64,000 nt of DNA, taken from assembly GCF_913060805.1 (NCBI RefSeq), contig NZ_CAJXTC010000010.1:1-64000 (forward strand). The letters are read 5' to 3'. A model generated the notes under the pieces. It was not told the DNA's origin. It saw nothing but the letters and a program-made list of their open reading frames with translations, and searched no databases. Below are positions 32,625-50,418 of this stretch, piece by piece (positions within the stretch are counted from its first letter, which is position 1; every line of letters starts with the position of its first letter). The translations under genes and the position numbers were made by a program. This DNA is from an uncultured Draconibacterium sp. Lineage in GTDB: Bacteria > Bacteroidota > Bacteroidia > Bacteroidales > Prolixibacteraceae.

Positions 32625-33071
32625 TTATATTTTCTCCTTAAAGTCAAGTTTTACGTCTCCCATTACCATGTTTTTGTCAACGGCTTTGCACATATCGTAA
32701 ATGGTTAACAGCGCAACATTCACGGCTGTTAAAGCTTCCATTTCAACGCCGGTTTGCCCAATGCATTTCGTCATGCTTTTTACCAAAACACCATTTTCCT
32801 GAACTTCGGCTTTTACCTCAACTTTGGTAAGTTGCAATGGATGACAAAGCGGAATTAGCCGCGATGTTTCTTTTGCTGCCTGAATTCCTGCGATTTCTGC
32901 AATGGTAATTACATCGCCTTTTTTTATCAGGCTTTCTTTTATCAGCCGAATAGTTTCGGGCTGCAAGGCAATAAAACCCGATGCTTTGGCGGTGCGTACC
33001 TGTTGTGGTTTGTGCCCCACATCCACCATGTTGGCTTTTCCTTCGTCGTTGATATGTGATAATTGGCTCAT
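32625..33071 (-). CDS. moaC: cyclic pyranopterin monophosphate synthase
   Basis: Converts the MoaA product to cyclic pyranopterin phosphate. 148 residues; SHINDEGKANMVDVGHKPQQVRTAKASG at the start and LIPLCHPLQLTKV, GVEMEALTAVNVALLTIYDMCKAVDK at the active site are diagnostic. Stop and start of neighbours are 3 and 8 bases away. Confidence 0.97.
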   Translation of the reverse strand: MSQLSHINDEGKANMVDVGHKPQQVRTAKASGFIALQPETIRLIKESLIKKGDVITIAEIAGIQAAKETSRLIPLCHPLQLTKVEVKAEVQENGVLVKSMTKCIGQTGVEMEALTAVNVALLTIYDMCKAVDKNMVMGDVKLDFKEKI

Positions 33072-33074
33072 ATT

Positions 33075-33875: not shown

Positions 33876-35034
33876 ATGCAAATTCATCAGTTTGAATGGT
33901 TGAAACTCCCAGTGGCACCTCAAGCAAAGCATTCGCAAAAGCCAGTGCATTTATGTGCGCCGATCCATGAAATGGAATTTCGGAGATGGCTCCATTGGCA
34001 TCAATAACAACCGGAATAATTGCCAAACGATTGGCTCTTTTCCTTTGGAACGTAAAATTCATTCGGGCTTTTATGCGTAATGGTGCATTGTCGGCTCCCA
34101 ATAGTTTGTTGATTACTGGTTTCGCGATCAACTCAAATTGTACGAACGACGAAACCGGATTTCCGGAAAGTCCGAAGACGAACTTGCCATCTTTTTCCGA
34201 AAATGTCATTGGGTTGCCGGGTTTAATGCCGGTGTGATCCCAGTATATTTTAAATCCCTGTTCTTTTAATATCTCCGGAATAAAGTCAAAATCGCCGACT
34301 GATGCTCCGCCGGTAAAAACAATAAAATCGCTTGTTTCCAGTGCTCGGTTAAAACTGCTTGTAAGTAACTCGTAGTCGTCAACAAGCATGAGTTCCTCCA
34401 CAACTTCAAGGTTCATTTTCCTGAGTTGGGTGATCACCTGGCTGGAATTACTGTTTCGTATCTGTCCCGGTTTTGGCGTTTCAGATGGTGGAACCAGTTC
34501 GCTGCCCGTTGCAATTACTGTTACTTTCGGGCGTTTTGAAACCAAAACCTCTGCATAACCTGCGCCGGCAAGTACTGCCATTTGCGGAACATTAATTAGT
34601 GTACCCTTTTTTAGCAGCACTTCACCCTTTTTATAATCTTCGCCCAGGTAACAAATATTTTTCTTTGTTTTGGGGTTAGTACAACGCACTTTATTTTCCG
34701 GAAGTTCTTCGGCATCCTCAACCATAAATACACAATCGCATTCGGACGGAACAGCAGCGCCGGTCATAATTTTCACACACTGGTTTTTCCCAATTTCAAC
34801 AGACGCGATCTTGCCTGCATTTATTACTTCCAGTACTTCCAGCTCCTTGCCAATATCTCCAAGTCGACAGGCATAACCGTCCATTGCCGATTTGTTGAAC
34901 GGTGGCATGTTTAAATCAGCCACCACATTTTCCTGTAGTACCCGGTTAAAAGCATTTTTCAGTTGTACCTTTTCGGTCGGTAAAACTGTTGCTAAATTGC
35001 CGATCAACTGTTGTATTTCTTCAAATTGGTTCAT
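33859..35034 (-). CDS. moeA: molybdopterin molybdenumtransferase
   Basis: 391 residues; inserts molybdate into adenylylated molybdopterin. Characteristic blocks: NMPPFNKSAMDGYACR, IMTGAAVPSECDCVFMVED, IATGSELVPP, RNSNSSQ, FTGGASVGDFDF, GIKPGNPMTFSEKDGKFVFGLSGNPVSSFVQFE. The start overlaps the end of the mobB-like gene by one base and its end overlaps moaA. Confidence 0.96.
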   Translation of the reverse strand: MNQFEEIQQLIGNLATVLPTEKVQLKNAFNRVLQENVVADLNMPPFNKSAMDGYACRLGDIGKELEVLEVINAGKIASVEIGKNQCVKIMTGAAVPSECDCVFMVEDAEELPENKVRCTNPKTKKNICYLGEDYKKGEVLLKKGTLINVPQMAVLAGAGYAEVLVSKRPKVTVIATGSELVPPSETPKPGQIRNSNSSQVITQLRKMNLEVVEELMLVDDYELLTSSFNRALETSDFIVFTGGASVGDFDFIPEILKEQGFKIYWDHTGIKPGNPMTFSEKDGKFVFGLSGNPVSSFVQFELIAKPVINKLLGADNAPLRIKARMNFTFQRKRANRLAIIPVVIDANGAISEIPFHGSAHINALAFANALLEVPLGVSTIQTDEFAYVRPL

Positions 35035-35579
35035 TAGGCGAGTGAAAATTTATTGTTCTTGAGCTGAATTCTATTGTAATCAAATTTAAGGTTTTCTCCA
35101 TCATTTTGCACAATTATTGGATTGTGTATCAGGTGATGTGCTTTTCTTAGAGGAGTTCCCGTTGATTGAATGAAAAAGAACAAACCAGGATTGATTATTT
35201 CGTGTAATCCACCTGACTCACAAACAATGGGTGTTTCAGGTAAATAAGGCGAAAGCTTTTCTAAAGCTTCCGGAAGATACTTAGGTTCGGCCATTACAAA
35301 GAATACCTGCTTTGCACCGGCCTGTAACATCAACGAACTGTCTTTGCCCGTAATTTGCTTCTCCTGCAAAATAACAAAGTGCTTATGTTTTGTAAGCACA
35401 TCATCACTGCTGTGCTCGTGGATATGCGAGGTGATTTTTAATCCGGTAACAGGTAAAGTTTCAGATAGCATTTCGATTACACGACAGGCAAAGTAGGTTT
35501 TTCCCACATTTCTGCCATTACCTGCAATCAACAGCAAGTTCGGATAATCGATTCTGGTATCTTTTTGTACTCGTGTCAT
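35034..35579 (-). CDS. MobB-like P-loop protein
   Basis: 181 residues with Walker A GNGRNVGKT (20-28) and a LKITSHIHEH strand, resembling MobB GTPases that help attach GMP to molybdopterin. It is divergent beyond the P-loop (ESGGL in place of the usual DGYK-like strand), so MobB is a best guess supported by its place as first gene of the Moco operon. The 1-base overlap with moeA shows tight coupling. Confidence 0.7.
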   Translation of the reverse strand: MTRVQKDTRIDYPNLLLIAGNGRNVGKTYFACRVIEMLSETLPVTGLKITSHIHEHSSDDVLTKHKHFVILQEKQITGKDSSLMLQAGAKQVFFVMAEPKYLPEALEKLSPYLPETPIVCESGGLHEIINPGLFFFIQSTGTPLRKAHHLIHNPIIVQNDGENLKFDYNRIQLKNNKFSLA

Positions 35580-36839: not shown

Positions 36840-39800
36840 TTAGTCTTCACTAACAACTTCTTCTTCCACAATTGGATTTGTCTTTTCGGAGAAATACGCC
36901 GAAACAATTACCAGCGCAACAACTGCCAATGCAATGTAAACGCCTGAAGGTATTGGAGCCGCTTCGCCCTGCGCATACGAGTGTAAACCCGACAGGTAAT
37001 AGTTTACTCCGAAATAGGTCATTAGTACCGAGCTGATGCCCAAAACTGCAGCCACACTCATGGCAAAACTACCGCGCATTCCCGGAATGCGGTGCATGTG
37101 CGTAATAAAAGTGTACACCAAAACGGTTACCAAAGCCCAGGTTTCTTTCGGATCCCAGCCCCAGTAACGGCCCCAGCTTTCGTTGGCCCAAACACCACCT
37201 AAAAACGAACCCAGCGTAACCATTAATAAGCCAATTATCAAGGCAATTTGGATGATATTAACCAATTCTTTTATGGTGTGGTTGATTCTGTCTGAATTGC
37301 GTCTGTTTCTAAAAATCATTAAAATGAGATTCAGGAAACCAAGCAGCGCACTGATTCCCAAAAATCCGTAGCTGGCTGTAATTACCGCCACGTGAACGAT
37401 TAGCCAGTATGATTTCAGAACCGGTACCAGGTTGGTAATTTCCGGGCTCATCCAGCTCATTCCGGCCACCATCAATGTTAAACCGGCCAGAACCGATGTT
37501 AACGACAGTGTAATTTCTGAACGTTTGGCAAAGATTAAACCGCCAAGTGCAGTTGCCCAACTGATGAATACCATCGATTCGTAACCATTACTCCATGGCG
37601 CGTGCTCCGAAATGTACCAGCGGATACCCAACCCTGCAGTTTCGGCAAGGAATAACAGCAGGATAAAATAGAAGGCAAAATTTTTCAGGAAACTTAATTT
37701 AATGTTCGGATTAAAAAGTGAAATCAACTGCAGCATCAGCAGAATCAAACCGGTGAACATGAAAATCTTTGATAATTTTCCAAAGATGTTCAGGTTATTA
37801 TAGATCACCTCCATTTTTACTTTTGTTGCCGATGGAATGATTTTCGCGCCGATAGTTTCCTGATTTTGCTTCAGGTTGTTCAGCAACTGGTTTGCCGTTG
37901 CCCAATCGCGAATTTGTACCGATTGAAGATAAGCAGAAACCGTTTGTGTTGCGAAATCAGCCTCCTGAGCCGGAAGTTCTTTCGCCTCGTTAATGGAAAC
38001 CCACTTGTGGTTATCGTCGTTGGGTACAGGGAAAATCGTCAGAAAATCGCCGCTAAAAATGGCCATAAGAATATTAACGCGCTCGTCAACATTCATAATC
38101 TCTTTATCGTATTTATTGCGGTGATTACTCTCTTTTGCATAAGCTGCCTGAACCGCAGAGCTTAGTATATAACCGCCCATTTCGCGCGGTCTAACAATTG
38201 AATTAAACGAAGCATATTTGCCACTAATTCCGATTGTTCTGCGCAATTCGGGATTGGCGACTTTTATAATGGCAATATTTTTCCAAAGTTCAGGATTGGC
38301 TTGCATATCCAGAAAAACTTCGGTTGGCGTCAAACCTTCCCAGCTGGTCTTTTTAGCTACTTTTCGTAGTATTTCGGAAGCCAGTGTAGAAACCGGCTCA
38401 ACACGACCTTTTCGGTCCTGAATCAGTAAATGTTCGAACGACTTGGCATGCTCGCTATTCATTGGTGCCGGAGTTGTATTTTGTGCCTGTGCACTAACAC
38501 TCAAGAGCAGACCGGTCACCAAAACAGCAAACAGCTTTTTACGTTTTTCGCGGAGTTGTGCCGATGCTTTCAACAGCGTTTTAAAACGACTGTTTCGGTT
38601 AAACAAAGTCAGCACCATTCCGATAGCCATAATCAGGTAGCCAAAATAAGTTACCGATGTTCCGGCAGAGTCGTGGTTCACCGACAGGATCGTTCCGCGC
38701 TCGTCGGTATCGTACGACGATTGGAAAAAGCGGTATCCTTTGTATTTCAATATATTATTCATAAAAATGCGGAATGGCATTTCCGTGGCGCCGTCTTTTA
38801 AAACAACTTCGCTGGCGTACGACGAAGGGCTCATTGAACCCGGGTAACGCTCGAGCTGGAAATCGTTAAGCTGGATGGCAAACGGTAGTTTTATGATTCG
38901 CGACCCGTACGAAACGGATACATTCATTCCGTCGATAGAGGTGTTGTAAAAATCGCCAACCTGGCCCGTGCGACCATAAACGATCAACTCTTTGCTTTCA
39001 CTGTTTGTTGAAATCGCGGCTTTAAAAGCATCCGGCGGATTCATTGTCTGCGTTGGTTTTTGGTAAGCCAATTGAATCGAGGCGTTTGGAAGAAATTGTT
39101 TAACGGCAAAAGTGAGATTTTTATACGTGTAAGCTTTTTGCGTGTCAACCAGTTTTTGGGTATTTGGCGCAATCAACTCACCGGTGTCGCTCATCATGCC
39201 CGACGCCTCAACAGTGTCGTTAGCCGAAATGTACAGGTTGCCATCTTTTAAACTCAGCTGAACATCGGTATTTGTGTTGTTACCAAATCCTAGCGTTACA
39301 CCGTTTAAATTCTTTGTATTATCGTTTCTAAGCGTAAAGTCTTTTCGCGAAGAGCCATTTACAACCGTAAGCAGCGAAACAATCGGTTCTCCGTTAGGGT
39401 CGAGAACAATGTTTTCAACCGCCGACGGCATAAAATGCTGATTGCTGATGTGGATTGTTTTTCCTTTAAAATGGATGTTATTTGAAAAACGGTTGGCGGT
39501 GTAGGGCGAGAATTTTACTTCGCTTGATTCTTCAACCGTTTCGGTGCCATCAGTTACTTTAACCGTTACATACGATGCTTCGGAAACAATAAAGTCCGAC
39601 GAGCTATTTTCGCGAATATGCATAGTGCCTTCATATCCGTAGTAACGCGTAATCATTGCACCTACACCAATAACGATAAAGGAAATATGAAAAAGCAGTA
39701 TCGACCATTTTTTCCGTGCGATAAGTTTGTATTTAAAAACACTGCCAACAATGTTGATGCAGAGTATAAATAACAGGATTTCGAACCACCTGGAATTGTA

Positions 39801-39932
39801 AATGAGAATTTTTGCAGTAGTGGTGCCATAATCGTTTTCAATAAAAGTGGCATAACCAATGGCTATTGCAAAAATTACCACCAAAATACCGGTAAAAAAC
39901 ATGGAAAAAATAAATGAACTGAGCTTCTTCAT
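36840..39932 (-). CDS. ccsBA: fused cytochrome c biogenesis protein CcsBA (ResB-CcsA)
   Basis: 1030 residues. The N-terminal ResB/CcsB part has membrane helices and a large periplasmic region; the C-terminal CcsA part has several helices and the heme-binding WWD motif WGWDPKETW at about 924-932. The protein delivers heme and attaches it to CXXCH sites of apocytochromes (System II). Such fusions occur in Bacteroidota and Epsilonproteobacteria, often next to the cytochromes they mature, as here. A hairpin separates it from the tetraheme gene, so it may have its own promoter. Confidence 0.93.
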   Translation of the reverse strand: MKKLSSFIFSMFFTGILVVIFAIAIGYATFIENDYGTTTAKILIYNSRWFEILLFILCINIVGSVFKYKLIARKKWSILLFHISFIVIGVGAMITRYYGYEGTMHIRENSSSDFIVSEASYVTVKVTDGTETVEESSEVKFSPYTANRFSNNIHFKGKTIHISNQHFMPSAVENIVLDPNGEPIVSLLTVVNGSSRKDFTLRNDNTKNLNGVTLGFGNNTNTDVQLSLKDGNLYISANDTVEASGMMSDTGELIAPNTQKLVDTQKAYTYKNLTFAVKQFLPNASIQLAYQKPTQTMNPPDAFKAAISTNSESKELIVYGRTGQVGDFYNTSIDGMNVSVSYGSRIIKLPFAIQLNDFQLERYPGSMSPSSYASEVVLKDGATEMPFRIFMNNILKYKGYRFFQSSYDTDERGTILSVNHDSAGTSVTYFGYLIMAIGMVLTLFNRNSRFKTLLKASAQLREKRKKLFAVLVTGLLLSVSAQAQNTTPAPMNSEHAKSFEHLLIQDRKGRVEPVSTLASEILRKVAKKTSWEGLTPTEVFLDMQANPELWKNIAIIKVANPELRRTIGISGKYASFNSIVRPREMGGYILSSAVQAAYAKESNHRNKYDKEIMNVDERVNILMAIFSGDFLTIFPVPNDDNHKWVSINEAKELPAQEADFATQTVSAYLQSVQIRDWATANQLLNNLKQNQETIGAKIIPSATKVKMEVIYNNLNIFGKLSKIFMFTGLILLMLQLISLFNPNIKLSFLKNFAFYFILLLFLAETAGLGIRWYISEHAPWSNGYESMVFISWATALGGLIFAKRSEITLSLTSVLAGLTLMVAGMSWMSPEITNLVPVLKSYWLIVHVAVITASYGFLGISALLGFLNLILMIFRNRRNSDRINHTIKELVNIIQIALIIGLLMVTLGSFLGGVWANESWGRYWGWDPKETWALVTVLVYTFITHMHRIPGMRGSFAMSVAAVLGISSVLMTYFGVNYYLSGLHSYAQGEAAPIPSGVYIALAVVALVIVSAYFSEKTNPIVEEEVVSED

Positions 39933-39969
39933 AATTAGTCGTTGTCTAGTTGTCTGAATTAAACACTAA

Positions 39970-40004
39970 AAAAATTCCTTTGTTTTGAAAACAAAGGAAT
40001 TTTT
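39970..40004 (-). terminator. terminator of the tetraheme gene
   Basis: A 17-bp perfect stem (39970-39986 with 39988-40004), core ATTCCTTTGT/ACAAAGGAAT, with a T tract on the minus strand, 25 bases after the tetraheme stop. Confidence 0.85.
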
Positions 40005-40028
40005 CACAAAACAATAGTTTACAAAATA

Positions 40029-40538
40029 TTAGTTTGTTGTTGTTGGATCGTCGTGAGCAATTACTTTCACAAATTCATCAAAATTCCATGCTTTTTTAGG
40101 AGCAACGTGGCCTTCTGGTTTTTCGCCAAGGTGACAAGCTTTACAGGTTTCTTCTGTTGGATCTGTCATACCTTTTGAAAGTGCCATTTTTTTGTTCTTC
40201 ATAATTGCAGCCGATTTGTAGTGGCTACCAGGTCCGTGACATGATTCGCATGAAACACCTTCGTCGGCTTTAAGACCGGCAAGCAAACCGCTATCAACAG
40301 ATCCGGCAGTTGAGTGGCATTTTAAACATGTTGCGTCATTTTTTTCGTCACCTTGAAGCGCATCCATTGCTTTGGCGTGTGGACCGGCTTCCCAAACTTT
40401 AAACTGCTCGCCTTTGTCGGGCTTGTTATGGCACATTTTACATTTAGCTGCACCAATGTACTTGTAGTTTTGTGCGGTCGCTGCGGTGCTGAAAATGATC
40501 GCAAGACCTAATAGAAACATTAATTTTCTGAAGTTCAT
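40029..40538 (-). CDS. tetraheme cytochrome c, c554-like
   Basis: 169 residues with a signal peptide (MNFRKLMFLLGLAIIFSTAATA) and four c-heme motifs: CKMCH, CLKCH, CESCH (followed by the cytochrome c554 hallmark GPGSHY) and CKACH. A soluble periplasmic electron carrier is most likely, passing electrons between the NapC-type and larger cytochromes encoded directly upstream. Not a catalytic c554 in any proven sense. Confidence 0.92.
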   Translation of the reverse strand: MNFRKLMFLLGLAIIFSTAATAQNYKYIGAAKCKMCHNKPDKGEQFKVWEAGPHAKAMDALQGDEKNDATCLKCHSTAGSVDSGLLAGLKADEGVSCESCHGPGSHYKSAAIMKNKKMALSKGMTDPTEETCKACHLGEKPEGHVAPKKAWNFDEFVKVIAHDDPTTTN

Positions 40539-40614
40539 AATTCTCGTATTAAAATTTATATTACTCGTTATTTGTTAAAAGCTATTATAAAAATAATAAA
40601 TATTGTGCCAAAAT

Positions 40615-42117
40615 CTAGTATAATGCTGTATGACACATTGAACACATCTCCGTTTTCCATGCTTCAGCAATGTCAACAGGGTGCTGGAATTCCAACGCTT
40701 CAAAAGCAGTAGAATACTGCATACTATCCTGAGTTCCCTGTGCTATAATATTGTGGCACAGCGAACAATCTTTCGAAATCGTTCTGTTTTCAGTTGTTGC
40801 ATGGCGGTCGTTATGGCAACGATAACAACCGTCCGATTCCATGTGGCCAATGTTATTTGGATATTCTTTCCAGCTTGCTTTCATGTATGGAAAAATGTTA
40901 TTCGAATAATCGTCCTGAATTGTTGCAATTGCCTGATCGATTTCAGCTTTTTTAGTTTCGTAAACATCAGGGTAACCACTTTCGAACCAATCGGTAACCT
41001 GGTCTTTAATGGCCATCATTGCTGTGTCTTTCGTCGGATAATCCTGGTAAAGCGCCATCATAGCTGCCAGTTTTATAGCAGGAAGCTCGGTTGAAATTTT
41101 ACCTTCTGCCATCGACTGATCGATAAAGTTTTGCGGTGCATTGTAATTGTGCGACGGCCTGTTGTGGCAATCCAAACAATCCATTACCCGTGTTTCCAAC
41201 GAATCAAGTTGTTCTTGTGAAACCATACTCATTTCGTCGGTATAAACGTATTCTTCTCCGGTTTTTGTGTTTGTATATTTTACCCACGGAATGATCTGAC
41301 GTTTCTCGTCGAGCGCTTTGTATTCAATTTTTACCTCGGGGCTAATGTGCTGGTGAATACCTTTAATTACACCCTTAGGAGTAACCTGAGTACTTGTTTT
41401 TACCTGTAAATGAACAATATGCTCGGTGTTCTCTTCATCGGTTAAGAATGAATGTTTTTCACGCATTTTGTTATCGTAGAATTTCTCGGGCCAGTGACAT
41501 TCTTCGCAGGTTTCGCGTGCCGGGCGCAAATTGGCAATTGGAGTAGGGATTGGCTGCGGATATTTATTGGCCAACACCGAATAAACCTGGTACAAACCCG
41601 AAAGTTTACTTTTTACATACCAGCTTGCTCCCGAACCAACGTGGCACTCCACACAAGCAACACGCTCGTGCGACGAACCGTGGTAAGTAACATATTCCGG
41701 CTCCATTACTTCGTGACATAATTTTCCGCAGAATTCTACCGATTCGGTGTAATGAAATGCTTCGTAACTTCCTACCGAAGAAATAATGAGCAAGAAAATT
41801 GTTCCAATGATAAAAATTGTACTGGCGTTACGGGTAGCCTGATTATTAAAATCAAGAATTGGCCAGTTTAAACGTTTGCCTTCTTCTTCAGCCAACCGTG
41901 CTTTTTTACGGTAAATCCGCATTCCGATTGGGATCATGAGCAATCCAACGATCAAAAATGCCGGAAGGATGATGAAGATGATTAAACCAATATATTGCCC
42001 ACCAAATCCGAAAGCAAGATTCAATAGAAATAATGCCAGTATACTGGCGAGATTGAAGACAGCAATAACTGCTCCGGTAATCGATACCCAGTTTCTTATG
42101 GAAGACGGTAATTTCAT
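40615..42117 (-). CDS. NapC/NirT-type membrane multiheme cytochrome c
   Basis: 500 residues: three N-terminal membrane helices (about 10-34, 42-68, 100-118), then a periplasmic NapC/NirT domain and a C-terminal extension. Heme motifs: an unusual CX3CH (Cys130-Gly-Lys-Leu-Cys134-His135) with EVMEPEY after it, then CVECH, CEECH, CLDCH, CYRCH, CSLCH and CSMCH, seven in total against four in ordinary NrfH/NapC. Such proteins take electrons from menaquinol. It lies between the 19-heme and tetraheme genes. Confidence 0.9.
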   Translation of the reverse strand: MKLPSSIRNWVSITGAVIAVFNLASILALFLLNLAFGFGGQYIGLIIFIILPAFLIVGLLMIPIGMRIYRKKARLAEEEGKRLNWPILDFNNQATRNASTIFIIGTIFLLIISSVGSYEAFHYTESVEFCGKLCHEVMEPEYVTYHGSSHERVACVECHVGSGASWYVKSKLSGLYQVYSVLANKYPQPIPTPIANLRPARETCEECHWPEKFYDNKMREKHSFLTDEENTEHIVHLQVKTSTQVTPKGVIKGIHQHISPEVKIEYKALDEKRQIIPWVKYTNTKTGEEYVYTDEMSMVSQEQLDSLETRVMDCLDCHNRPSHNYNAPQNFIDQSMAEGKISTELPAIKLAAMMALYQDYPTKDTAMMAIKDQVTDWFESGYPDVYETKKAEIDQAIATIQDDYSNNIFPYMKASWKEYPNNIGHMESDGCYRCHNDRHATTENRTISKDCSLCHNIIAQGTQDSMQYSTAFEALEFQHPVDIAEAWKTEMCSMCHTALY

Positions 42118-42369
42118 AATTTTTCGTTTATTGGTTTGATGTAAAATCTAGTGATCCAAGATTATAATTTTCCTTTAATTATTCAAGGTCAGGTACTTAT
42201 TTATAAGTTGTCTATATACGCGCTGCTATTTTGAAATTATGTTCTGAACGCGAAGTTTTAACACTTCTACAAAGTTACATATTTGTCATATTTACTGTTT
42301 ATTATACTACTAATCTACTAGGTTAAAGTATTAAAAATTGTATTTTCATTTTTTTCGTTTTTTCGCCAT

Positions 42370-45201
42370 TTAGTGGAAAATTAAAGAGTAAATTATCAGT
42401 AATACCATGATTACGCCGGCGAAAAGTGCGGTGAATCCAAATATTTTTATCGTTCTCATGTGTTCTTTGGTAAACTCTTTTTCAACGCGAACGTCATTGA
42501 TTTTTCCGGATTTTACCAGCTGCTCATATTCGTGCGGACGATCTTTTTTGTATTCTTCCTCAAGAACATAACCGGTGAAAATTACGGTGTCCATCGGGAA
42601 CGATTCCGGACGCAAGTGGGTGTTGAAAAAGTGAATGGTAAAAATAAATCCAACGGCCAGTAAAGCTTCGTCGCTGTGAATGATCTGCGCCACATTAATC
42701 AGCCAGCCAGGCAGGAATTTGGTAAAGAATTCGGGGAACCACAGCATTAATCCGGTTGAGCCGATTACCAGCACTCCCCAGAATACAGCGAAGTAGTCGA
42801 ATTTTTCCCAGTAGGTCCATCGTCCATAATCGGGCCGCGGACCAACACCGATAAACCATTTTATAGAAGCCCAGAAATCGCGAATGTCTTTCCGGTTAAA
42901 CATCAGCGAGTTACTGCTGAATATAAACTTGCTGACTTTAATTCCTTTTTTGAATTTAACTTTCAATAATGCTACCACATGGAAAATAAAATATCCGAAA
43001 GTGATCAGTGCAGCCGTTCGGTGAATAAAGCCGGCAATGTGAGCGCCACCGATGGCTTCAGCCAGATATTGGGCCCAGTCCATGTAGGCAAATTTCAATA
43101 TCATTCCGGTAAGTGCCAGCAGTATAAAACTGATAATTACGAAAATATGGGTAATCCTGTTTTTCTTCTGGAAACGCCTGATATATATCTGTTTACCAAC
43201 TGGTTTTGGCTCTTTTCGTTTTTTGATCATCGCGCCCAGCGAACGAGGAATCCACAACAATGTATGCAGCCCGAAGAAAGCAAACACACTTAAAAGTAAA
43301 CCGGTCATGGCCCAGAAAGTGTAGTACAGCCACGGGAAGTTGCTTTTATCGTAATGTGTGGCGTGTGTCAGGTAACCGGTAAATTTCATGTTGGCATCAG
43401 TATGGCACTTCGAACAGGTTGCAACAATATTCCGTGGACTTATCGTTGATTTCGGGTTGTCCATCCGGTAAATATTGTGTGCTCCGTGGCAGTCGGAACA
43501 ACGGGCCGCTTCAAGATAACCCAGCTGATAAACTTTTCCGTGGTAGGTTTCCAGGTAGGTTTCTGCCAGTTCCTCGTGGCACTGCCCGCACTGCGAGCTA
43601 ATTTCCGACATAAATTTACTTTCATGTACTTCTGAAATATTGTGAGCCGAGTGACAGGTTTCGCAAGTTGGGAATTTCAGTTCTTCGGTGTTGGCGCTAA
43701 TTCCGTGCTCGCTGTCAATGTACTGGTCGTAAATTCCTTTGTGGCAATTTCCACAGGTTTTTGCCAGGTTTGCCGGATTTACCGACGAACGCTCATCTTC
43801 TTCCTTCAGCATAAAGTGTGTGGTGTGGCAGTCGGTACAAATGGCGGCTGCCAACAATCCTTTTTCCTCCAGGCTTCGTCCGTGAACGCTGGTGGAATAG
43901 TCGTAATACGCATCGGTTTCCTTCAGGTTTGTTCCTTCCACTGCCTGTCCGTTTTCCTTATGACATTCGCCACAAAGTTTTGGTACTTCTGAGCGGAAAG
44001 TTGGAGAAGTTTCATCGTCGGACGGAATAACATGGTGCGATCCGTGGCAATCGGTGCAATACGGTGCATTTTCGTGTTTGGCAAAATAGGCTTTTCCGTG
44101 TCCGCTCTGGAAGTAAATATCCGATTCTTCGGCGTGGCAACTCGAGCAGTCCACCTTGTCGGAAGTTTCGCAAGGGCGGGCAATATTGGCCGTTACATCC
44201 GAGTGGCATTTTACACAGGTGATGTTATTATGGGCCGAATTAACAAATTGATTAACATCAACATAAAGCGAAACCTGTTCGTCGTCTACTACTTTGTGAA
44301 TATCTGGTTGCTCGTGGCATTTCAGGCAGGTTTTATCCGATATGTTTTCGATAATATTTTTCAGCTCTACTTTGTGGGGTGGGTGGCAATCGGTACAGGC
44401 CGGAATTGCTCCCGGACTTTTCTCCCAAAGTTCTTTGTTGATTATTTTAATGTGCACATCCTCAATTCGCGCGTGGCATTGCATGCATGTTGCTGCAATG
44501 TTTTTCTCCGAAATGCTGGAGTTCATGTTGGTGTGGGGGAGAATAAGGTGGTTGCCGTGGCAGTTGTTGCAGGTGGCCGTTACCACCAAACCACTGCTGA
44601 ATAATCCTTTTCCGTGGATGCCCTGTGTGTAGTTCTCAACAATGTTGTGCTCGCCAATATTATAGGCACGGGCAACCGGCGCTCCTTCGCGGTGGCAGGT
44701 TCCGCACAACACCGGAATATTCATTTTATAGGTGCGCGATTGCGGATCGGCCGAACTTAGTATCTCGTGCGTTCCATGACATTCGGCGCAGTTAGGCGAA
44801 TTTTTGTCGCCCTCTTCAAAGGCAATTCCATGAACGCCGTCCATGTATTTTGTCATGGCCTCGTCGTGGCAATCGCCGCAATTTACCGGTTGCAGTTTAT
44901 CGGCATGCGGAAATTCCTCGACATCGGCGTCCGTATGGCACGAAATACATTCGAGATAACTGTGTACTGATTTTTCGAGAATACCGGCAGGAATATACCT
45001 CGATACTTCCCGGCCGTTTACAATGGTAAAAAGCTCCGGGTCGTCGTGGCACATGGCACAATCGTCGTTGGATTGTGCCATAATTTTTAATCCGGGCAAC
45101 AGAAACAAACCGACGATTAAAAAGATTTTAACCAGCCCTGAATTTGCTTCGGTGCATACATCGAACAGATTTTTGGCTAAAGTTTTGCTCAAGTACTTCA
45201 T
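42370..45201 (-). CDS. 19-heme cytochrome c fused to a cytochrome b membrane domain
   Basis: 943 residues. A signal/anchor helix lies at about 23-42, then nineteen CXXCH motifs between 48 and 600 (CAMCH, CISCH, CGDCH, CAECH, CGTCH, CNNCH, CMQCH, CTDCH, CLKCH, CVKCH, CSSCH, CTDCH, CGECH, CTDCH, CGNCH, CETCH, CGQCH, CSDCH, CSKCH). Residues 620-943 hold membrane helices with histidines (ITHIF, FIHRTAA, FHVVALL, IIHSDEALLAVGFIFTIHFFNTHLR) resembling a di-heme cytochrome b561/formate dehydrogenase gamma domain. One chain could carry electrons from quinol to a long periplasmic heme wire. Encoded after the b-type gene; an AT-rich 252-base gap separates it from the NapC-type gene. Confidence 0.9.
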   Translation of the reverse strand: MKYLSKTLAKNLFDVCTEANSGLVKIFLIVGLFLLPGLKIMAQSNDDCAMCHDDPELFTIVNGREVSRYIPAGILEKSVHSYLECISCHTDADVEEFPHADKLQPVNCGDCHDEAMTKYMDGVHGIAFEEGDKNSPNCAECHGTHEILSSADPQSRTYKMNIPVLCGTCHREGAPVARAYNIGEHNIVENYTQGIHGKGLFSSGLVVTATCNNCHGNHLILPHTNMNSSISEKNIAATCMQCHARIEDVHIKIINKELWEKSPGAIPACTDCHPPHKVELKNIIENISDKTCLKCHEQPDIHKVVDDEQVSLYVDVNQFVNSAHNNITCVKCHSDVTANIARPCETSDKVDCSSCHAEESDIYFQSGHGKAYFAKHENAPYCTDCHGSHHVIPSDDETSPTFRSEVPKLCGECHKENGQAVEGTNLKETDAYYDYSTSVHGRSLEEKGLLAAAICTDCHTTHFMLKEEDERSSVNPANLAKTCGNCHKGIYDQYIDSEHGISANTEELKFPTCETCHSAHNISEVHESKFMSEISSQCGQCHEELAETYLETYHGKVYQLGYLEAARCSDCHGAHNIYRMDNPKSTISPRNIVATCSKCHTDANMKFTGYLTHATHYDKSNFPWLYYTFWAMTGLLLSVFAFFGLHTLLWIPRSLGAMIKKRKEPKPVGKQIYIRRFQKKNRITHIFVIISFILLALTGMILKFAYMDWAQYLAEAIGGAHIAGFIHRTAALITFGYFIFHVVALLKVKFKKGIKVSKFIFSSNSLMFNRKDIRDFWASIKWFIGVGPRPDYGRWTYWEKFDYFAVFWGVLVIGSTGLMLWFPEFFTKFLPGWLINVAQIIHSDEALLAVGFIFTIHFFNTHLRPESFPMDTVIFTGYVLEEEYKKDRPHEYEQLVKSGKINDVRVEKEFTKEHMRTIKIFGFTALFAGVIMVLLIIYSLIFH

Positions 45202-45364
45202 GCTAAGCGTCTTTAATATAATTACTAAATCCTTCTTCTCAGCCTACCTTGCGAGCCAACTATGCATTATTTGTGTGCTGCTATTTCTGTTCTGTTTTCT
45301 TCCTTCTCCCTTCTGCCTGCTTTGTTTTATTGTTTATTTATGGACTTGCTTTTCTTTGTTCAAT

Positions 45365-45982
45365 TTACACGTGGTGCCATCCGTTTACAATGCTTCTGAA
45401 ATTATCAAGAGGTGACTTGCCAATTGATGCAATGTAAAGATGCACGATTAAGAATATGGAAATAAAGAATCCCATAGCCGAATGCGTTACAGCTGTGATA
45501 AGAACACCGCTGATGTTGTAAATTTTATTGAATATCAGCTCGGGAAACATTAACCCGATACCCGAAATTATTACCAATGGAACAACCAGGTACATAACAG
45601 CGATATAAGTATATTTTTGTAGCGGATTAAATTTACGTTTTTCAGAAAGCGGGTAAGGAGCTTTCATTCCGTGAAACATTCCCCAGGCATAATAGTAGGC
45701 CTGTTTCATTGGGCGTTTCAGAAAGTTCTTAGGTTTAACAATGTAGAATTTCTTGTTGCTTGTAAAAAAGTTTCCGAATAAAAACAGCAAGTAATTCAGC
45801 GTTATAATTACTCCGGCATAATTGTGCACGGTAATAATCAGTTTAAAGCTTATCAGCGATTCTTCAAAACCCGAATTCATACTAATTCCGGTAACGATAA
45901 GAAGAATAATACCCAAGGCGTTTATACCATGCCAAATGCGTAACCAAAGCGGGTAGAAATATATTTTGTTCTCTGAGCTCAT
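45365..45982 (-). CDS. cytochrome b561-like membrane subunit
   Basis: 205 residues, four membrane helices. Candidate heme-b histidines are in LRIWHGINALG (His18), ITVHNYAG, VTHSAMGF and IVHLYIAS. It resembles the b-type subunits of formate dehydrogenase, hydrogenase and thiosulfate reductase, which exchange electrons with menaquinone. It starts 2 bases after the heptaheme stop, so the two probably form a complex. Confidence 0.88.
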   Translation of the reverse strand: MSSENKIYFYPLWLRIWHGINALGIILLIVTGISMNSGFEESLISFKLIITVHNYAGVIITLNYLLFLFGNFFTSNKKFYIVKPKNFLKRPMKQAYYYAWGMFHGMKAPYPLSEKRKFNPLQKYTYIAVMYLVVPLVIISGIGLMFPELIFNKIYNISGVLITAVTHSAMGFFISIFLIVHLYIASIGKSPLDNFRSIVNGWHHV

Positions 45983-45984
45983 TG

Positions 45985-46923
45985 TTATTTCTTTTTGATG
46001 ATGATTCTAAATATTACGTGGATGATAATTCCTGCAAATGCTGCAAAAAAGATGATCAAACTTATCGTTTTTAAAATTGGAATCTGGTGCGATCCAATCA
46101 CGTAATTTTCATTCGAGAGCATTCCGAGCGCTGTTCCGTCTTCGGCTCTTTCCTGCAGGTTTTGGTATTTGTATAACGATGCTTTTAGCAATGAGTTTGC
46201 CGAGTGACATTCGGCACAACGGCGTACTGCTTCTTCTTTTGCAAGAATGTTGTGCGATACCATCAAATCGTCTTCAACTGCAGTGTGGCACTCGATACAA
46301 CGTACATGTTTAAAGTGGAGCTCCTGGTTTGGCAGCCAGTCGTGAATGGTGCCAACGCCAGCTTTAGTATCGCCGGATACCAGACTGAATCTTTTCATAT
46401 CATTATGACACGATAAACACATGTCGTTACTGTTTTCAACAATCTCCATAATACTGCTACTTGTGCGGGCAGTGGTAGAGTAGTAGTGTTGATCGTGACA
46501 TTTTGAACAGGTAAAGTTATCGCCAAAACTCTGGCGGTGTATACTCTTGTTAACTTCTTCGTCTATCTTTTCAAACTCGTATTTTGCAAACGACTCATCG
46601 CCGGCGTGGCAATCCAAACATGTCATCATTGGCTCCAGCTTTAACGATGCAGCATGCGGATAGGTTGTATAGTCGAATGAGTGACAATCCGTGCAGTCGA
46701 AATTTTGATGAACACCTGTACGTAACCGCAAAGTATCGATTATCAGGTATGGATTCATCAGTCGTTTCTCCTCAGTATCCATCATGTCGTTATGAAATGA
46801 ATAGGTTTGCTGAGAGTGACATTTTAAACAATCGTGATTTGCGGGATCATCGTAAAATTGCCCGAAACTCGGTACGGCAATCGCCAAAAGCATCAGGATT
46901 TGTAATGGAATGAAATATTTCAT
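45985..46923 (-). CDS. membrane-attached heptaheme cytochrome c
   Basis: 312 residues with signal peptide (MKYFIPLQILMLLAIAVPSFG), seven CXXCH motifs (CLKCH, CTDCH, CLDCH, CSKCH, CLSCH, CIECH, CAECH) and a C-terminal membrane helix (TISLIIFFAAFAGIIIHVIFRIIIKKK). It is the periplasmic partner of the b-type subunit encoded 2 bases downstream. First gene of the middle transcription unit of the cytochrome cluster, after a terminator. Confidence 0.92.
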   Translation of the reverse strand: MKYFIPLQILMLLAIAVPSFGQFYDDPANHDCLKCHSQQTYSFHNDMMDTEEKRLMNPYLIIDTLRLRTGVHQNFDCTDCHSFDYTTYPHAASLKLEPMMTCLDCHAGDESFAKYEFEKIDEEVNKSIHRQSFGDNFTCSKCHDQHYYSTTARTSSSIMEIVENSNDMCLSCHNDMKRFSLVSGDTKAGVGTIHDWLPNQELHFKHVRCIECHTAVEDDLMVSHNILAKEEAVRRCAECHSANSLLKASLYKYQNLQERAEDGTALGMLSNENYVIGSHQIPILKTISLIIFFAAFAGIIIHVIFRIIIKKK

Positions 46924-46977
46924 GGGTTAAATCGTGTAAATAGATCTGAAGTTTGCAATAACTTTATTGAATGAAAA

Positions 46978-47009
46978 ATGGTAATATCACTTTTTACGGA
47001 TATTACCAT
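46978..47009 (-). terminator. terminator after the DUF5777 gene
   Basis: An 11-bp stem ATGGTAATATC/GATATTACCAT (46978-46988 with 46999-47009) with a T-rich tract on the minus strand. It separates the outer-membrane group of genes from the membrane group. Confidence 0.75.
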
Positions 47010-47035
47010 CTTTATCATTTTTACTTTTTAATCGA

Positions 47036-47932
47036 TTAGAACATCCAGATACGAGTTATGGTAAAACCAACGGCCAATCCTTTATTGGTCCAGTCTTTCT
47101 GGTTATACATCATCGCATCCTGAGGAAGAATACCCTGTGCTGTTCCAACATAAATTTGGAAAGCGTGGGTGAATGTAAAGAATTCAACACCAAATGCTAC
47201 GTTTTCTTTAGCATGTGTAGCCCAGGTATGCTGCTCGGTAATATCTTTAATTTTAAGTGGATTGTCGTAGTTGAAAATAAAAGATCCCTGTGGAGAGAAC
47301 TTAATTTTTCCACTAAAATGAAGACCGATTACATCGTGGTCGTAATCCCAGCCTACCGTATTATAGTGCGAAAAACTGGCACCTGCCTGCAACGATAATA
47401 CATCGCCGAAGTTGCGGGTAACCATAGCTTGCGAGAAATACGAAAGACGGTCGGTGAATCCAAACTGGTATTGAGCCGGTTTGCCTTTTGATTCAACTAC
47501 GTTGCCGGTTCCGAAAGCGCTTTCGTTTCTTCCGTCGATAGCTACATTACCAAATACGGTAAGTGATATTGGCATGCCACTTGTTTTTTGCTGAAGTATT
47601 TTATACTTGGCATTAAAATCAGTGTACATGTTCTTTTTTGTGATTCCCGCGCCGATTTGTAGATTCTTTACAGGTACATAGTTTAGCGCCAATCTTACGT
47701 TGGAGCCCGGAGCATAAATTCCCCACAAGTCAGATTTCCCGTTTTCGAGCGAACCGAATTTGTGTTGAATAATAAATTCCAATGTACGTGCATCAGGAAT
47801 ATAAGAGGTTTGTGCGTCAATCAGTATGCCGCTGTTAAAAGCATATACCGGATCGGCTTCCTCCTCCTGTGCAAACGAATTGGAAAAAGTTACTCCTAAA
47901 ATAATCAGAATCAATATATATTTTTTCATCAT
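47036..47932 (-). CDS. DUF5777-type putative outer-membrane beta-barrel
   Basis: 298 residues with a signal peptide (MMKKYILILIILGVTFSNSFAQ). Alternating beta strands throughout (VRLALNYVPVKNLQIGAGITKKNMYTDFNAKYKIL ... LQAGASFSHYNTVGWDYDHDVIGLHFSGKIKFS) and a terminal aromatic (ITRIWMF) fit an outer-membrane barrel, resembling DUF5777. It is encoded between heme lipoproteins and membrane cytochromes, so it may be the pore through which an outer-membrane cytochrome is wired. That role is inferred. Confidence 0.75.
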   Translation of the reverse strand: MMKKYILILIILGVTFSNSFAQEEEADPVYAFNSGILIDAQTSYIPDARTLEFIIQHKFGSLENGKSDLWGIYAPGSNVRLALNYVPVKNLQIGAGITKKNMYTDFNAKYKILQQKTSGMPISLTVFGNVAIDGRNESAFGTGNVVESKGKPAQYQFGFTDRLSYFSQAMVTRNFGDVLSLQAGASFSHYNTVGWDYDHDVIGLHFSGKIKFSPQGSFIFNYDNPLKIKDITEQHTWATHAKENVAFGVEFFTFTHAFQIYVGTAQGILPQDAMMYNQKDWTNKGLAVGFTITRIWMF

Positions 47933-47948
47933 TAATCAGTTTAGGTTT

Positions 47949-48326
47949 TTAATTGTTTTGAGCTCCTTGAGTGATCCAGGTAAGTACCAATGCCGCTTCT
48001 GCCTCCGAGTATTTAATATGGTTTCCATCAGGGCTTGGTTTGGTGTAAATCAAGCTCGATGCAGGATCAGAAGTGTTTATATAACGGCTGCTATTTAGCG
48101 AATTATAGGCATTCTCAGGAGTAAGGTCTGGATTTTGATTTCCGGTGTAATGGCACGAAGTACATTTTGAATCGAAAATTGGCGCGATTTCCGCAGAAAA
48201 CGATACATCAGGTGCATCGGGATCAGTCGGATCTACCACCTCTTCTTCAACTATCCAATTGTACGCGCAACCACTCATTATTATCGCTAATACGATCAGT
48301 GATAAAAGAGTTTTGAATGTCCTCAT
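47949..48326 (-). CDS. monoheme cytochrome c lipoprotein
   Basis: 125 residues. The lipobox IIMSGC puts a lipidated Cys at 20; one heme motif CTSCH at 55-59 in the context IFDSKCTSCHYTGNQNPDLTPENAY resembles small c-type domains of the planctomycete/DUF1587 kind (EIAPIF...C..CH). It probably sits on a membrane facing the periplasm or the surface. It lies 16 bases upstream of the DUF5777 gene. Confidence 0.85.
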   Translation of the reverse strand: MRTFKTLLSLIVLAIIMSGCAYNWIVEEEVVDPTDPDAPDVSFSAEIAPIFDSKCTSCHYTGNQNPDLTPENAYNSLNSSRYINTSDPASSLIYTKPSPDGNHIKYSEAEAALVLTWITQGAQNN

Positions 48327-48342
48327 GAGTATTGGTTTTTAA

Positions 48343-48377
48343 AAAGTCGGATATAATTTAAAAAGATATCCGACTTT
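48343..48377 (-). terminator. hairpin after the hexaheme gene
   Basis: A 12-bp perfect stem AAAGTCGGATAT/ATATCCGACTTT (48343-48354 with 48366-48377) with a short T5 run on the minus strand; it may only attenuate read-through to the monoheme gene. Confidence 0.6.
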
Positions 48378-48418
48378 GTTATTTTTTCAAATTATTGTAA
48401 AAACAGTAGAGCCGCTTG

Positions 48419-49540
48419 CTATAAACCTAAGGCAGCTTCGGCCTGGTTTAGCAATTGTCTTGCATAACCTGGGTTATGTGCTCCGTGACTCTTGTCTTCC
48501 CATAAGCACATGAAATTCCAAAATGCATCCCATTGGTCTTTTGGTAAAGACGCGTACATAGGATGTACTCCGTCTTCAGCAACGTGGATCGCACCAATTT
48601 CTTCTAAAGCAGCTTCAACAGCAGCCATTCTTGCAGCGATATCAGATTGGATACCTTCAATATCAACTGCGTCACCATGGCAGTTATTACACATATTAAT
48701 TTCAGCAACATAAGAGTGGCCGCTAGCGCCATCTTCACCGTGCATGTGACAATTAATACAAGTGTGGTGTGCTTGCTCAAATGGAGTACCAATTTGAGAA
48801 CCCATATCAGCAGCAATCATATTTGCTTGTGGTCCGTGGTGTGGTCCGGCATGTGTACTGCTGGTGTAAACGTGAGTTAAAGGAACATCAAATACTACTG
48901 TTAATGTATCTTCGGTAGCATTTAAAGTTTTTGATCCATTAGGACCTACGGCACCGTGGAGTTGGTATGACTCAATATCCGCTCCTGTGAACGTGCGAGT
49001 AAATGTTGTTGCTTCTGTTCTATAATAAGAATCTGGAGTAGATCTTGCCTGGTGACAAGTTGCACACAAGTTTGAAGCTTCGTAGTTATAAGTTTTTCCA
49101 TCAATGGCAGCTGATTCAACAAATTCCATACTGTAAAGAGGAGCACTTATACCTTCTTCTAAACTGCTGTGGTTGTTGTGACATGTTGAACACTCAAGCG
49201 GTGCACCAACTGCAGGAGCTATTTCAGCACCTGTTGTAATATAGGTTACATAACCTTCATCCGAGTGACATTGAGCACATCCTGCTCTGGTACCAGCATA
49301 AGAAAATGAAGTTCCAGCTGAGTGTGCGTGTTCTGAAAATGTAGTGGTAATCGCATCCATATTGGATTGTGTGTGACACACTAAACAGGTTTGATTCCCG
49401 TCCATACCATCGGCTCCATCGGCTCCATCAGTTCCATCGGCTCCAGGAAGTCCCATCGGCCCTTCTTTTGTACATGAAGAAAACATGAATGCCAGAATAA
49501 AACCTAGCATGAATAATTTTGAGATAGATTTGTAGTTCAT
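48419..49540 (-). CDS. collagen-like hexaheme cytochrome c lipoprotein
   Basis: 373 residues. The lipobox FMFSSC makes Cys23 the lipidated residue. Residues 27-50 are eight perfect Gly-X-Y triplets (GPM GLP GAD GTD GAD GAD GMD GNQ), a collagen-like stalk. Six c-heme motifs follow, the first at Cys52: CLVCH, CAQCH, CSTCH, CATCH, CINCH, CNNCH. Lipid anchor, trimer-forming stalk and heme head suggest a surface-exposed, possibly trimeric cytochrome that hands electrons outward. It is the first structural gene after the Crp/Fnr regulator. No reductase hallmark such as CXXCK is present. Confidence 0.88.
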   Translation of the reverse strand: MNYKSISKLFMLGFILAFMFSSCTKEGPMGLPGADGTDGADGADGMDGNQTCLVCHTQSNMDAITTTFSEHAHSAGTSFSYAGTRAGCAQCHSDEGYVTYITTGAEIAPAVGAPLECSTCHNNHSSLEEGISAPLYSMEFVESAAIDGKTYNYEASNLCATCHQARSTPDSYYRTEATTFTRTFTGADIESYQLHGAVGPNGSKTLNATEDTLTVVFDVPLTHVYTSSTHAGPHHGPQANMIAADMGSQIGTPFEQAHHTCINCHMHGEDGASGHSYVAEINMCNNCHGDAVDIEGIQSDIAARMAAVEAALEEIGAIHVAEDGVHPMYASLPKDQWDAFWNFMCLWEDKSHGAHNPGYARQLLNQAEAALGL

Positions 49541-49686
49541 AACGTAGTATATTAGGTAATTTATATTTGTTATTACTCTTTGGGAGATAAAAGTACTTCG
49601 ATAACCATTATGAACTTTAGGGGGAACAGTGATATAACAGAATGTGCAAATTGATAATAAGCAAGTCTGGGATTGATATATGTCAA

Positions 49687-50418
49687 TTATCCGTTTTCGC
49701 TAATCGAAACTAGTGAACTTTCGTCTAATATGCTTATTGTATTACCCTTGGTATTAATGTATTTAGAGTCTTTAAATTGGTGAAGAATCCGTACAAAGCT
49801 TTCTTTTGTCATGTTCGACATCTCGGCTAATTCCTGCCGCGTAAGAGGCACCGAAAACTCATCAGAGTTGAAAATTTCGTTCTTTAAATACAGTAAAGTA
49901 TCAGCCACTCTTCCGGGCATATATTTCTGTGTATGGTCGACCAGTTTTTTTAGCAGGTAATTGTTTTGTTTGGTGTGGTTGCGCAGTAATTTAATGGCAA
50001 ACTCGTTGTTCTGCCCAAAAATGCTGGTCAGGTTTGCCGAGTCGATCATACAGCACCTTACTTTGGTAATTGCCGAAACGCTAAAATGCTGGAAGTTTCC
50101 GTTAAAAAGACCTCCTCCGCTGATAAAGTCACCGGCTTTGGCAATACGCACAATTACGTTTTTGCCGTTTGCACTTTCAACATAAAATTTTGCCAGTCCT
50201 TCGTTAATACAAATCACCGAAGTTGAAGCTGTATTTTGTTTGGTGATAGTCTCTCCAACATTATATACAATTTGTCGTTTTTTGTCAATCAGAAAGTCAA
50301 TTTCTTCCTGGTTGAGGGGGGAAAAGATGTTGTTTTTATGTTCTTGTATACACGATTTGCAACCTCCTCCATGAAGCTTACTGCCCTTGTTACAATTTTC
50401 GGTATTGTTATGCGCCAT
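49687..50418 (-). CDS. Crp/Fnr-family transcriptional regulator
   Basis: 243 residues: cyclic-nucleotide-binding-like fold (IVYNVGETITKQNTASTSVICINEGLAKFYVE), dimer helix (about 135-160) and a C-terminal HTH (VPLTRQELAEMSNMTKESFVRILHQFK). The N terminus has cysteines at 9, 20 and 23, with another Cys in SVICINEG, an arrangement compatible with but not proving an oxygen-labile [4Fe-4S] cluster as in FNR. It is 146 bases upstream of the hexaheme gene and points the same way, so it is the likely regulator of the cytochrome cluster. Confidence 0.9.
   Translation of the reverse strand: MAHNNTENCNKGSKLHGGGCKSCIQEHKNNIFSPLNQEEIDFLIDKKRQIVYNVGETITKQNTASTSVICINEGLAKFYVESANGKNVIVRIAKAGDFISGGGLFNGNFQHFSVSAITKVRCCMIDSANLTSIFGQNNEFAIKLLRNHTKQNNYLLKKLVDHTQKYMPGRVADTLLYLKNEIFNSDEFSVPLTRQELAEMSNMTKESFVRILHQFKDSKYINTKGNTISILDESSLVSISENG

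Follow-up and report, generated by a model that had tools for sequence, protein, structure and literature searches.

Where do electrons go that enter a large cluster of multiheme cytochromes in which no terminal reductase is evident? The question is raised by a gene cluster at positions 36840-50418, minus strand, of the window studied here, a 64,000-nucleotide stretch of a contig (C10) from an uncultured Draconibacterium sp. The contig is part of a 5.48-Mb Prolixibacteraceae assembly, and the genome is near Draconibacterium sediminis. The original prediction, made without database searches, described ten co-directional genes with 44 c-heme motifs in six proteins (6+1+7+19+7+4). These coordinates and counts hold, and all ten open reading frames (ORFs) are intact and separated by gaps of 2-252 nt. 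The motifs comprise 43 CXXCH and one CX3CH, distributed over a hexaheme lipoprotein (6), a monoheme lipoprotein (1), a heptaheme cytochrome (7), a fusion protein (19), a NapC/NrfH-like protein (7), and a c554-like protein (4). The two predicted cytochrome b domains (both Ni_hydr_CYTB, PF01292), the CcsBA gene, and the Crp/Fnr gene are borne out by Pfam matches, and it is confirmed that the ten proteins contain no CXXCK and the cluster no molybdoenzyme.

The cluster is best read, from the comparisons described below, as a real and conserved respiratory cluster of known families in an arrangement for which we found no earlier description. We favour, with moderate confidence, a role in anaerobic respiration: a multiheme reductase held by a lipid anchor at or on the outer membrane would receive electrons from menaquinol, the quinol of this phylum, and probably pass them to metals, humics, or other acceptors outside the cell. 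This menaquinol-to-surface route appears to be the best explanation for the ImcH signature of one protein, the CbcL layout of another, a porin gene beside a relative of the 19-heme gene (locus L044), the match of the hexaheme lipoprotein to OcwA, the divergence of that lipoprotein, and a survey of 80 genomes. Metal reduction reported for another Bacteroidetes genus and the enrichment on an anode of a Bacteroidetes genome rich in genes of this kind, both taken up below, point the same way.

At low oxygen, the Fnr-like factor would turn the genes on. Quinol would be oxidised at one of three inner-membrane sites, namely the ImcH-type protein, the CbcL-type 19-heme-cytochrome b fusion, or the pair of heptaheme cytochrome and cytochrome b. 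To cross the periplasm, electrons would use either the 19-heme domain or the tetraheme c554-like protein, and they would exit via the hexaheme lipoprotein, which is predicted by remote homology to have an NrfA/OcwA-type fold and is presumably at the surface. The outer-membrane step may involve a pair of DUF5777 barrel and monoheme lipoprotein, although the barrel is seemingly too narrow for a multiheme wire. CcsBA would supply heme attachment. The ten genes, all on the minus strand, are as follows.

49687..50418, minus: Crp/Fnr-type regulator (cNMP_binding PF00027, HTH_Crp_2 PF13545)
48419..49540, minus: hexaheme lipoprotein with collagen-like stalk, proposed surface terminal reductase (6 CXXCH, Cys23 after signal peptide, NrfA/OcwA profile matches)
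47949..48326, minus: monoheme c-type lipoprotein, DUF5777 partner (CTSCH at residue 55, Cys20, adjacency counts)
47036..47932, minus: DUF5777 outer-membrane β-barrel, 12 predicted strands (PF19089, E 1.7e-65; AlphaFold2)
45985..46923, minus: heptaheme c-type cytochrome with C-terminal membrane anchor (7 CXXCH, hydropathy peak 287-305)
45365..45982, minus: cytochrome b with four transmembrane (TM) segments, Ni_hydr_CYTB, PhsC-like, probably di-heme (PF01292, E 8.6e-24)
42370..45201, minus: 19-heme c domain fused to FdnI/HydC-type cytochrome b, CbcL-like (19 CXXCH, PF01292)
40615..42117, minus: ImcH-type quinol oxidase, NapC/NirT-related, with 3 TM segments, CX3CH, and 6 CXXCH (PF03264, E 4.8e-11)
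40029..40538, minus: tetraheme cytochrome c554-like protein, proposed periplasmic carrier (PF13435, E 1.4e-11; 4 CXXCH)
36840..39932, minus: CcsBA (ResB-CcsB fusion), cytochrome c maturation (PF05140 and PF01578, above cut-offs)

Apart from the six cytochrome genes, CXXCH occurs in the window in just two open stretches of at least 60 codons in six frames, with one motif each (33078-33950, minus; 39963-40175, plus, antisense within the cluster). Since the motif is otherwise rare in the window and the gene set recurs in relatives, the clustering of heme motifs is not due to chance.

The hexaheme lipoprotein as candidate terminal reductase

A profile of 16 hexaheme lipoproteins was searched against the sequences of the PDB. 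The best solved chain is OcwA (6i5b, E 6.6e-13), followed by NrfA (1oah, 3.8e-10; 6v0a, 1.9e-9), and the matches extend to octaheme nitrite reductases as remote homologs. The OcwA match spans several of the last heme sites and the C-terminal helices with a DxSxGxHN motif. A control profile from 17 of the 23 available heptaheme sequences has its best match in 28pb (E 3.9e-6), reaches NrfA 6v0a at 2.6e-5 across residues 198-249, which include two heme motifs, and reaches OcwA only at 0.082. A single-sequence search with hexaheme residues 155-300 did not reach OcwA. Judged by its profile, the hexaheme lipoprotein is a remote member of the NrfA superfamily with OcwA as its best solved match. The claim that the cluster has no recognisable terminal reductase therefore fails by fold, and is true for the CXXCK test only: the CXXCK of the catalytic heme of NrfA proper is absent from the hexaheme lipoprotein and 15 relatives.

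OcwA is a cell-surface terminal reductase of Thermincola potens, with a five-coordinate, open-site heme that lacks CXXCK and lies below a His-His pair, HH380/381 (excerpt of PMC6703420). In the alignments with OcwA and 6v0a, heme 2 of the lipoprotein pairs with the second open heme of OcwA, as numbered by counting from fragments, and with the catalytic heme of NrfA; weak extra segments with 1oah and 2j7a (12 bits) run counter to this pairing and shift the hemes by one. Outside the CXXCH motifs, histidines 73, 234, 259, 275, and 355 are conserved in 16/16 sequences and histidine 124 in 15/16. Residue 234 begins an HH pair that may be equivalent to HH380/381 of OcwA; at the second position, 235, 10 of the 16 sequences have His and the other 6 have Tyr. 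Six conserved non-motif histidines for six hemes, with H234 as one of them, would leave one heme open. The lipoprotein differs from OcwA in having a lipid anchor, a collagen-like stalk, and six hemes instead of nine. Its chain, with one heme before the NrfA-like part, also lacks the c554-like tetraheme half of OcwA, and the cluster contains a separate c554-like gene. In a locus from Ignavibacteriales (L072), too, a multiheme lipoprotein of collagen-like type lies near ORFs with 14 and 6 hemes.

The hexaheme lipoprotein diverges far faster than the rest of the cluster. Its identity to the counterpart in locus L014 is 37%, against 78-94% for the other nine proteins; the corresponding values are 35% (others 80-92%) for L108 and 36% (79-93%) for L109. 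Such divergence fits a protein exposed to phages, predators, or changing substrates, and gene exchange might also produce it. We propose that the lipoprotein is a terminal reductase, probably located at the cell surface.

The most serious alternative, which we nevertheless regard as unlikely, is a soluble acceptor: the lipoprotein would reduce nitrite, hydroxylamine, nitric oxide, or a sulfur oxyanion, in the periplasm or at the surface, and be fed by the quinol dehydrogenases. Such a role is compatible with the distant relationship of the lipoprotein to NrfA, OcwA, and octaheme nitrite reductases and with the PhsC-like cytochrome b (PRK15006, below cut-off). OcwA, despite having no CXXCK, reduces nitrite slowly and also reacts with hydroxylamine (excerpt of PMC6703420). 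However, the genome already has an NrfH-NrfA pair (contig C9) and a molybdopterin/Fe-S pair (C11), and three entry points plus a 19-heme domain exceed, in our judgement, the needs of known soluble pathways. The lipid anchor, the collagen-like stalk, and the fast divergence also suit an exposed protein. The original reading of the set as a quinol-to-surface conduit is strengthened by the ImcH and CbcL layouts and by the porin match (L044; L022, below threshold) or large ORFs near some relatives of the 19-heme gene, and the likeness of the lipoprotein to NrfA and OcwA leaves room for a soluble acceptor.

Proposed quinol-oxidase types and the 19-heme fusion

The defining traits of ImcH homologs are three TM segments at the N-terminus, an atypical CX3CH alongside them, and 5-9 CX2CH motifs, and those of the Geobacter group have 495-519 residues and six CX2CH (excerpt of PMC6295460). 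A further criterion for such homologs is an identity of 31.5-49% to the Geobacter group. The ImcH-type protein of the cluster is 500 residues long, with hydropathy peaks at 16-34, 43-61, and 94-112 that correspond to three N-terminal TM segments, a CX3CH (CGKLCH) at residue 130 beside the TM region, and six CXXCH. It bears the published signature, and in all these traits can be set, by description, beside ImcH of Geobacter sulfurreducens. Unlike ImcH, the window protein shares its cluster with other entry points and a candidate lipoprotein reductase.

The 19-heme fusion has the layout of the CbcL/MtrH/MtoC family, in which a multiheme half with 3-23 CX2CH is joined to a HydC/FdnI-like cytochrome b of mostly six TM segments (excerpt of PMC6295460). 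The multiheme N-terminal half, the HydC/FdnI-type C-terminal half, and the number of motifs agree with this description, whereas CbcL of Geobacter has nine motifs (same excerpt) against 19, arranged as 8+8+3, in the window. The C-terminal half matches PF01292 above the cut-off and TIGR01583 with E 1.4e-10, below its cut-off. Five hydropathy peaks follow the heme domain, and a sixth segment near 848-870 was placed by eye. Within its TM region, the family is described with three histidines that are conserved. Eight histidines after the last CXXCH of the fusion are invariant in 78/78 sequences (613, 646, 685, 727, 741, 842, 857, and 862); 741 alone lies inside a predicted peak, 646 and 685 are at edges, and 857 and 862 are in the segment placed by eye. 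From this layout, the fusion is predicted to be a CbcL-like quinol oxidase.

The heptaheme cytochrome and the neighboring cytochrome b are proposed to be the periplasmic and membrane halves of one CbcBA-like quinol dehydrogenase. CbcA of Geobacter carries seven hemes. The pair resembles CbcBA of G. sulfurreducens in outline, as a multiheme c subunit with a separate b subunit. The cytochrome b subunit matches PRK15006 with E 1.4e-45, yet its 155.8 bits are below the cut-off of 204. Its histidines 18, 53, 167, 181, and 203 are kept in at least 95% of 31 sequences, and no match to it was found among solved chains at E up to 1. A relative of this subunit is fused to a glycine-cleavage H-protein domain (PF01597, E 1.8e-23) in another genome region (L050:16633-17868).

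By architecture, then, three quinol-oxidase types share one cluster, and each would be active in oxidising quinol. G. sulfurreducens uses ImcH, CbcL, and CbcBA at different redox potentials (excerpt of PMC12307469); in the window their counterparts lie side by side.

The same chain might run inward and reduce the quinone pool, with Fe(II), metallic iron, or a partner cell as the electron donor. CbcL/MtoC relatives are found in Fe(II) oxidisers (excerpt of PMC6295460), a reversed CbcBA is predicted for syntrophic sulfate reducers (PMC10553843), and a Prolixibacter strain corrodes iron (PMC4767289), but the title of PMC8368055 names nitrite as a causal factor in corrosion by Prolixibacter. To date, ImcH has been linked solely to quinol oxidation (excerpt of PMC6295460), and we consider inward flow improbable.

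The heme number of the fusion is tightly kept. The 19-heme gene has at least 585 relatives; within the best 80 loci, 77 full-length ORFs (at least 40% identity, more than 85% coverage) were counted, with L068 and L078, whose ORF was missed in selection, and the split L061 left out and 49 weaker matches kept apart. Exactly 19 CXXCH are present in 75 of the 77 and 21 in the other two, and 8 of the 18 inter-motif spacings are the same in all 75. The 19-heme proteins of the window and of L014, the locus of Draconibacterium sediminis, are 95% identical. Hemes 1-8 and 9-16 form a gapless internal duplication (31% identity, E 2e-55). Seven shorter c-b fusions with 11 motifs lie near 19-heme genes (L040, L041, L059, L060, L063, L073, and L075) and align from about heme 9, with first spacings near those of hemes 9-16 and last ones that differ (29, 42 against 25, 30). 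They look like an 8+3 form, and the window protein like an 8+8+3 form. The constant heme number may mirror a constant length, for instance the distance across the periplasm. In a genus relative (G079:C1:54659-57489), the 19-heme-b protein appears as two overlapping matches, one to the heme part and one to the cytochrome b part; L061 contains a similar split.

The neighbors of 19-heme relatives were inspected gene by gene in 12 loci. In L044, the 19-heme gene adjoins ORFs with 8 and 10 hemes and an MtrB/PioB match (PF11854, 36.5 bits, cut-off 23). L022 has a porin match under the cut-off beside the relative, and L025, L029, L049, and L072 contain large ORFs without a Pfam match amid multiheme ORFs. 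By gene context, the 19-heme family is linked with extracellular electron transfer (EET). We speculate, with considerable doubt, that the fusion is a single-molecule wire, whose quinol-oxidising cytochrome b anchors it in the inner membrane and which reaches the outer membrane without a soluble carrier. Its length would have been set by the octaheme duplication and held at 19 hemes across many phyla, and it would hand electrons over to the OcwA-type lipoprotein via the narrow DUF5777/monoheme pair, a crossing unlike known porin-cytochrome complexes.

The DUF5777 barrel and the distribution of the cluster

The AlphaFold2 model of the DUF5777 protein has 12 strands (predicted local distance difference test score, pLDDT, 81.3; predicted template modelling score, pTM, 0.78). 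Its top Foldseek matches are OmpG, a COG4313 channel, FapF, NanC, and KdgM, with TM-scores that do not exceed 0.50 when normalised by query length and reach 0.69 when normalised by target length. MtrB, by comparison, is a wide barrel. Because only 12 strands are modelled, DUF5777 was ruled out as an MtrB-type conduit, and we judge the predicted barrel too narrow for a multiheme wire. The proposed function, to carry electrons across the outer membrane, is that of MtrCAB and other porin-cytochrome conduits, but a 12-strand barrel with a monoheme partner takes the place of a wide barrel around a multiheme wire. The DUF5777/monoheme pair is the sole candidate inside the cluster for crossing the outer membrane.

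A heme protein of 80-175 residues lies on the same strand within 1.5 kb of DUF5777 in 32 of 37 cases; 22 of the 37 were drawn from loci picked for their 19-heme gene. The other five comprise two at contig ends, one with a larger heme neighbor, and two with none. Among 30 phylum-wide DUF5777 loci with short flanks, 19 have an 80-175-residue heme neighbor, 3 a heme ORF of other size, and 8 none. DUF5777 is present in 68 of 80 genomes of the family and 62 of 148 of the phylum, and was found apart from the cluster with other neighbors (L112, L114-L118), some of which, by eye, we take to be YceI-like. It was rejected as a marker of EET for being so widespread. The idea of DUF5777 as the surface conduit has thus lost ground, given the 12 strands, the occurrence away from the cluster, and its 68 genomes against 23 of 80 for the 19-heme gene. 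The barrel seems often, not always, redox-linked, with a role wider than the cluster. No paper on DUF5777 was found in a literature search mostly without subscription journals, and the cluster gives this family a likely redox partner.

Across the 80 Prolixibacteraceae genomes, the heptaheme gene occurs in 59, the ImcH-type gene in 53, and the 19-heme gene in 23. All 23 genomes with the 19-heme gene also carry the heptaheme and ImcH-type genes, and 52 of the 53 ImcH-type genomes have the heptaheme gene. The heptaheme gene lies within 3 kb of DUF5777 in 58 of 59 genomes; the remaining one ends 256 bases from a contig end. The hypothesis that DUF5777, the monoheme, and the hexaheme form a separate surface module, for example for redox sensing or lipoprotein display, merely co-located with the quinol oxidases, draws on the wide occurrence of DUF5777 with other neighbors, but the linkage of heptaheme and DUF5777 is kept even in six genomes with the ImcH-type gene on another contig, which makes it very improbable.

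The original prediction suggested looking for co-occurrence in relatives, and the gene set does recur there. Among the best 80 loci, which were selected by their 19-heme gene and in many cases stop at a contig end, all three quinol-oxidase types occur together in 17 and the full set of ten in 7. The Draconibacterium sediminis locus, L014, has all ten. These 80 loci fall under 15 group labels, taken from record titles, besides unclassified and FCB records. In L108, L109, and L122 the cluster is otherwise the same and lacks the 19-heme gene. L110 is without the 19-heme and c554-like genes, L111 also without the ImcH-type gene, and L121, within the stretch examined, without the 19-heme, ImcH-type, and c554-like genes and CcsBA. 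As the regions without the 19-heme gene keep the regulator, hexaheme, monoheme, DUF5777, heptaheme, and cytochrome b genes, and the ImcH-type gene is sometimes missing from them, these six genes look like the core and the other two quinol oxidases like additions. An extra monoheme ORF of 140-157 residues lies between DUF5777 and the heptaheme gene in L110, L111, L120, and L121.

Of 13 genomes sampled from a single genus, 7 carry the 19-heme gene and 6 lack it. Three of the six show the rest of the cluster, complete but for the 19-heme gene in L108 and L109 and also without the c554-like gene in L110. A tblastn search of the gaps between the cytochrome b and ImcH-type genes of L108, L109, L110, and L122 found no convincing remnant of the 19-heme gene. 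L108 and L109 resemble each other in the spacer nearest the ImcH-type gene. The genus is a ready natural comparison for what the long heme domain adds.

Several results weigh against electron flow from menaquinol to a surface reductase. The AlphaFold2 model of the hexaheme lipoprotein is poor (mean pLDDT 57), and Foldseek found nothing for it below E 1. No Pfam match to MtrB_PioB, and no barrel wide enough for a multiheme conduit, was found in the cluster. The hexaheme family is also close to NrfA, in keeping with a soluble acceptor. Outside Bacteroidota, the 19-heme gene mostly occurs without the core, with the heptaheme gene in 3 of 47 loci; many of these loci are truncated at contig ends. 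A limited literature listing showed no report of metal reduction by Draconibacterium.

The combination of genes is undescribed as far as our literature search reaches: mostly without subscription journals, and hence no proof, it found no description of such a cluster for ImcH, CbcL, or CbcBA in Bacteroidota, or for EET in Prolixibacteraceae or Draconibacterium. There are earlier hints. A Bacteroidetes genome enriched on an anode (Bacteroidetes_1) has a seven-gene cluster proposed for EET, which by description resembles that of the window in its phylum and its six multiheme cytochromes with one barrel (excerpt of PMC8258643). Possible EET pathways were noted in a Prolixibacteraceae genome (excerpt of PMC10504345), and Labilibaculum, also of the Bacteroidetes, reduces Fe and Mn by a pathway that was not assigned (excerpt of PMC5760507). 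The cluster suggests an ability of this group to use extracellular substrates for respiration. In Bacteroidota, metal reduction is known without assigned genes, and the cluster supplies a genetic basis for extracellular respiration that can be put to the test.

Regulator, maturation genes, and other redox loci

The Crp/Fnr-type regulator is a possible Fe-S redox or oxygen sensor. Cysteines conserved among 24 sequences are C9 (21/24), C20 (23/24), C23 (21/24), C70 (20/24), C122 (18/24), and C123 (23/24); their spacing differs from that of the four cysteines that bind the Fe-S cluster in E. coli FNR. CcsBA scores 179.2 bits against TIGR03144, slightly below the cut-off of 187.6. Just past CcsBA, at 32625-35579 on the minus strand, lie moaC, moaA, moeA, and mobB-like genes, named by eye; moeA- and mobB-like genes adjoin the cluster in L108 and L109 too. 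A molybdoenzyme within the cluster was sought and rejected, as the two PF00384 matches of the genome sit on other contigs (C11 and C29).

The genome contains further redox loci. On contig C19 (L101, 8274-12122 and 12104-13699, minus strand), a 1282-residue ORF with 52 CXXCH lies beside a 531-residue ORF with 20, accompanied by a 558-residue ORF without a Pfam match and an Fe-S-like ORF. The NrfH-NrfA pair on C9 (L107, 6695-8317) lies at the very end of the contig, so NrfA is cut off. On C11 (L104, 7688-17651), a 901-residue ORF with 11 CXXCH and a hydrophobic N-terminal half adjoins a Rieske-like ORF; the two are divergent from the molybdopterin/Fe-S pair and further sulfur-type genes. Names at this locus were mostly given by eye.

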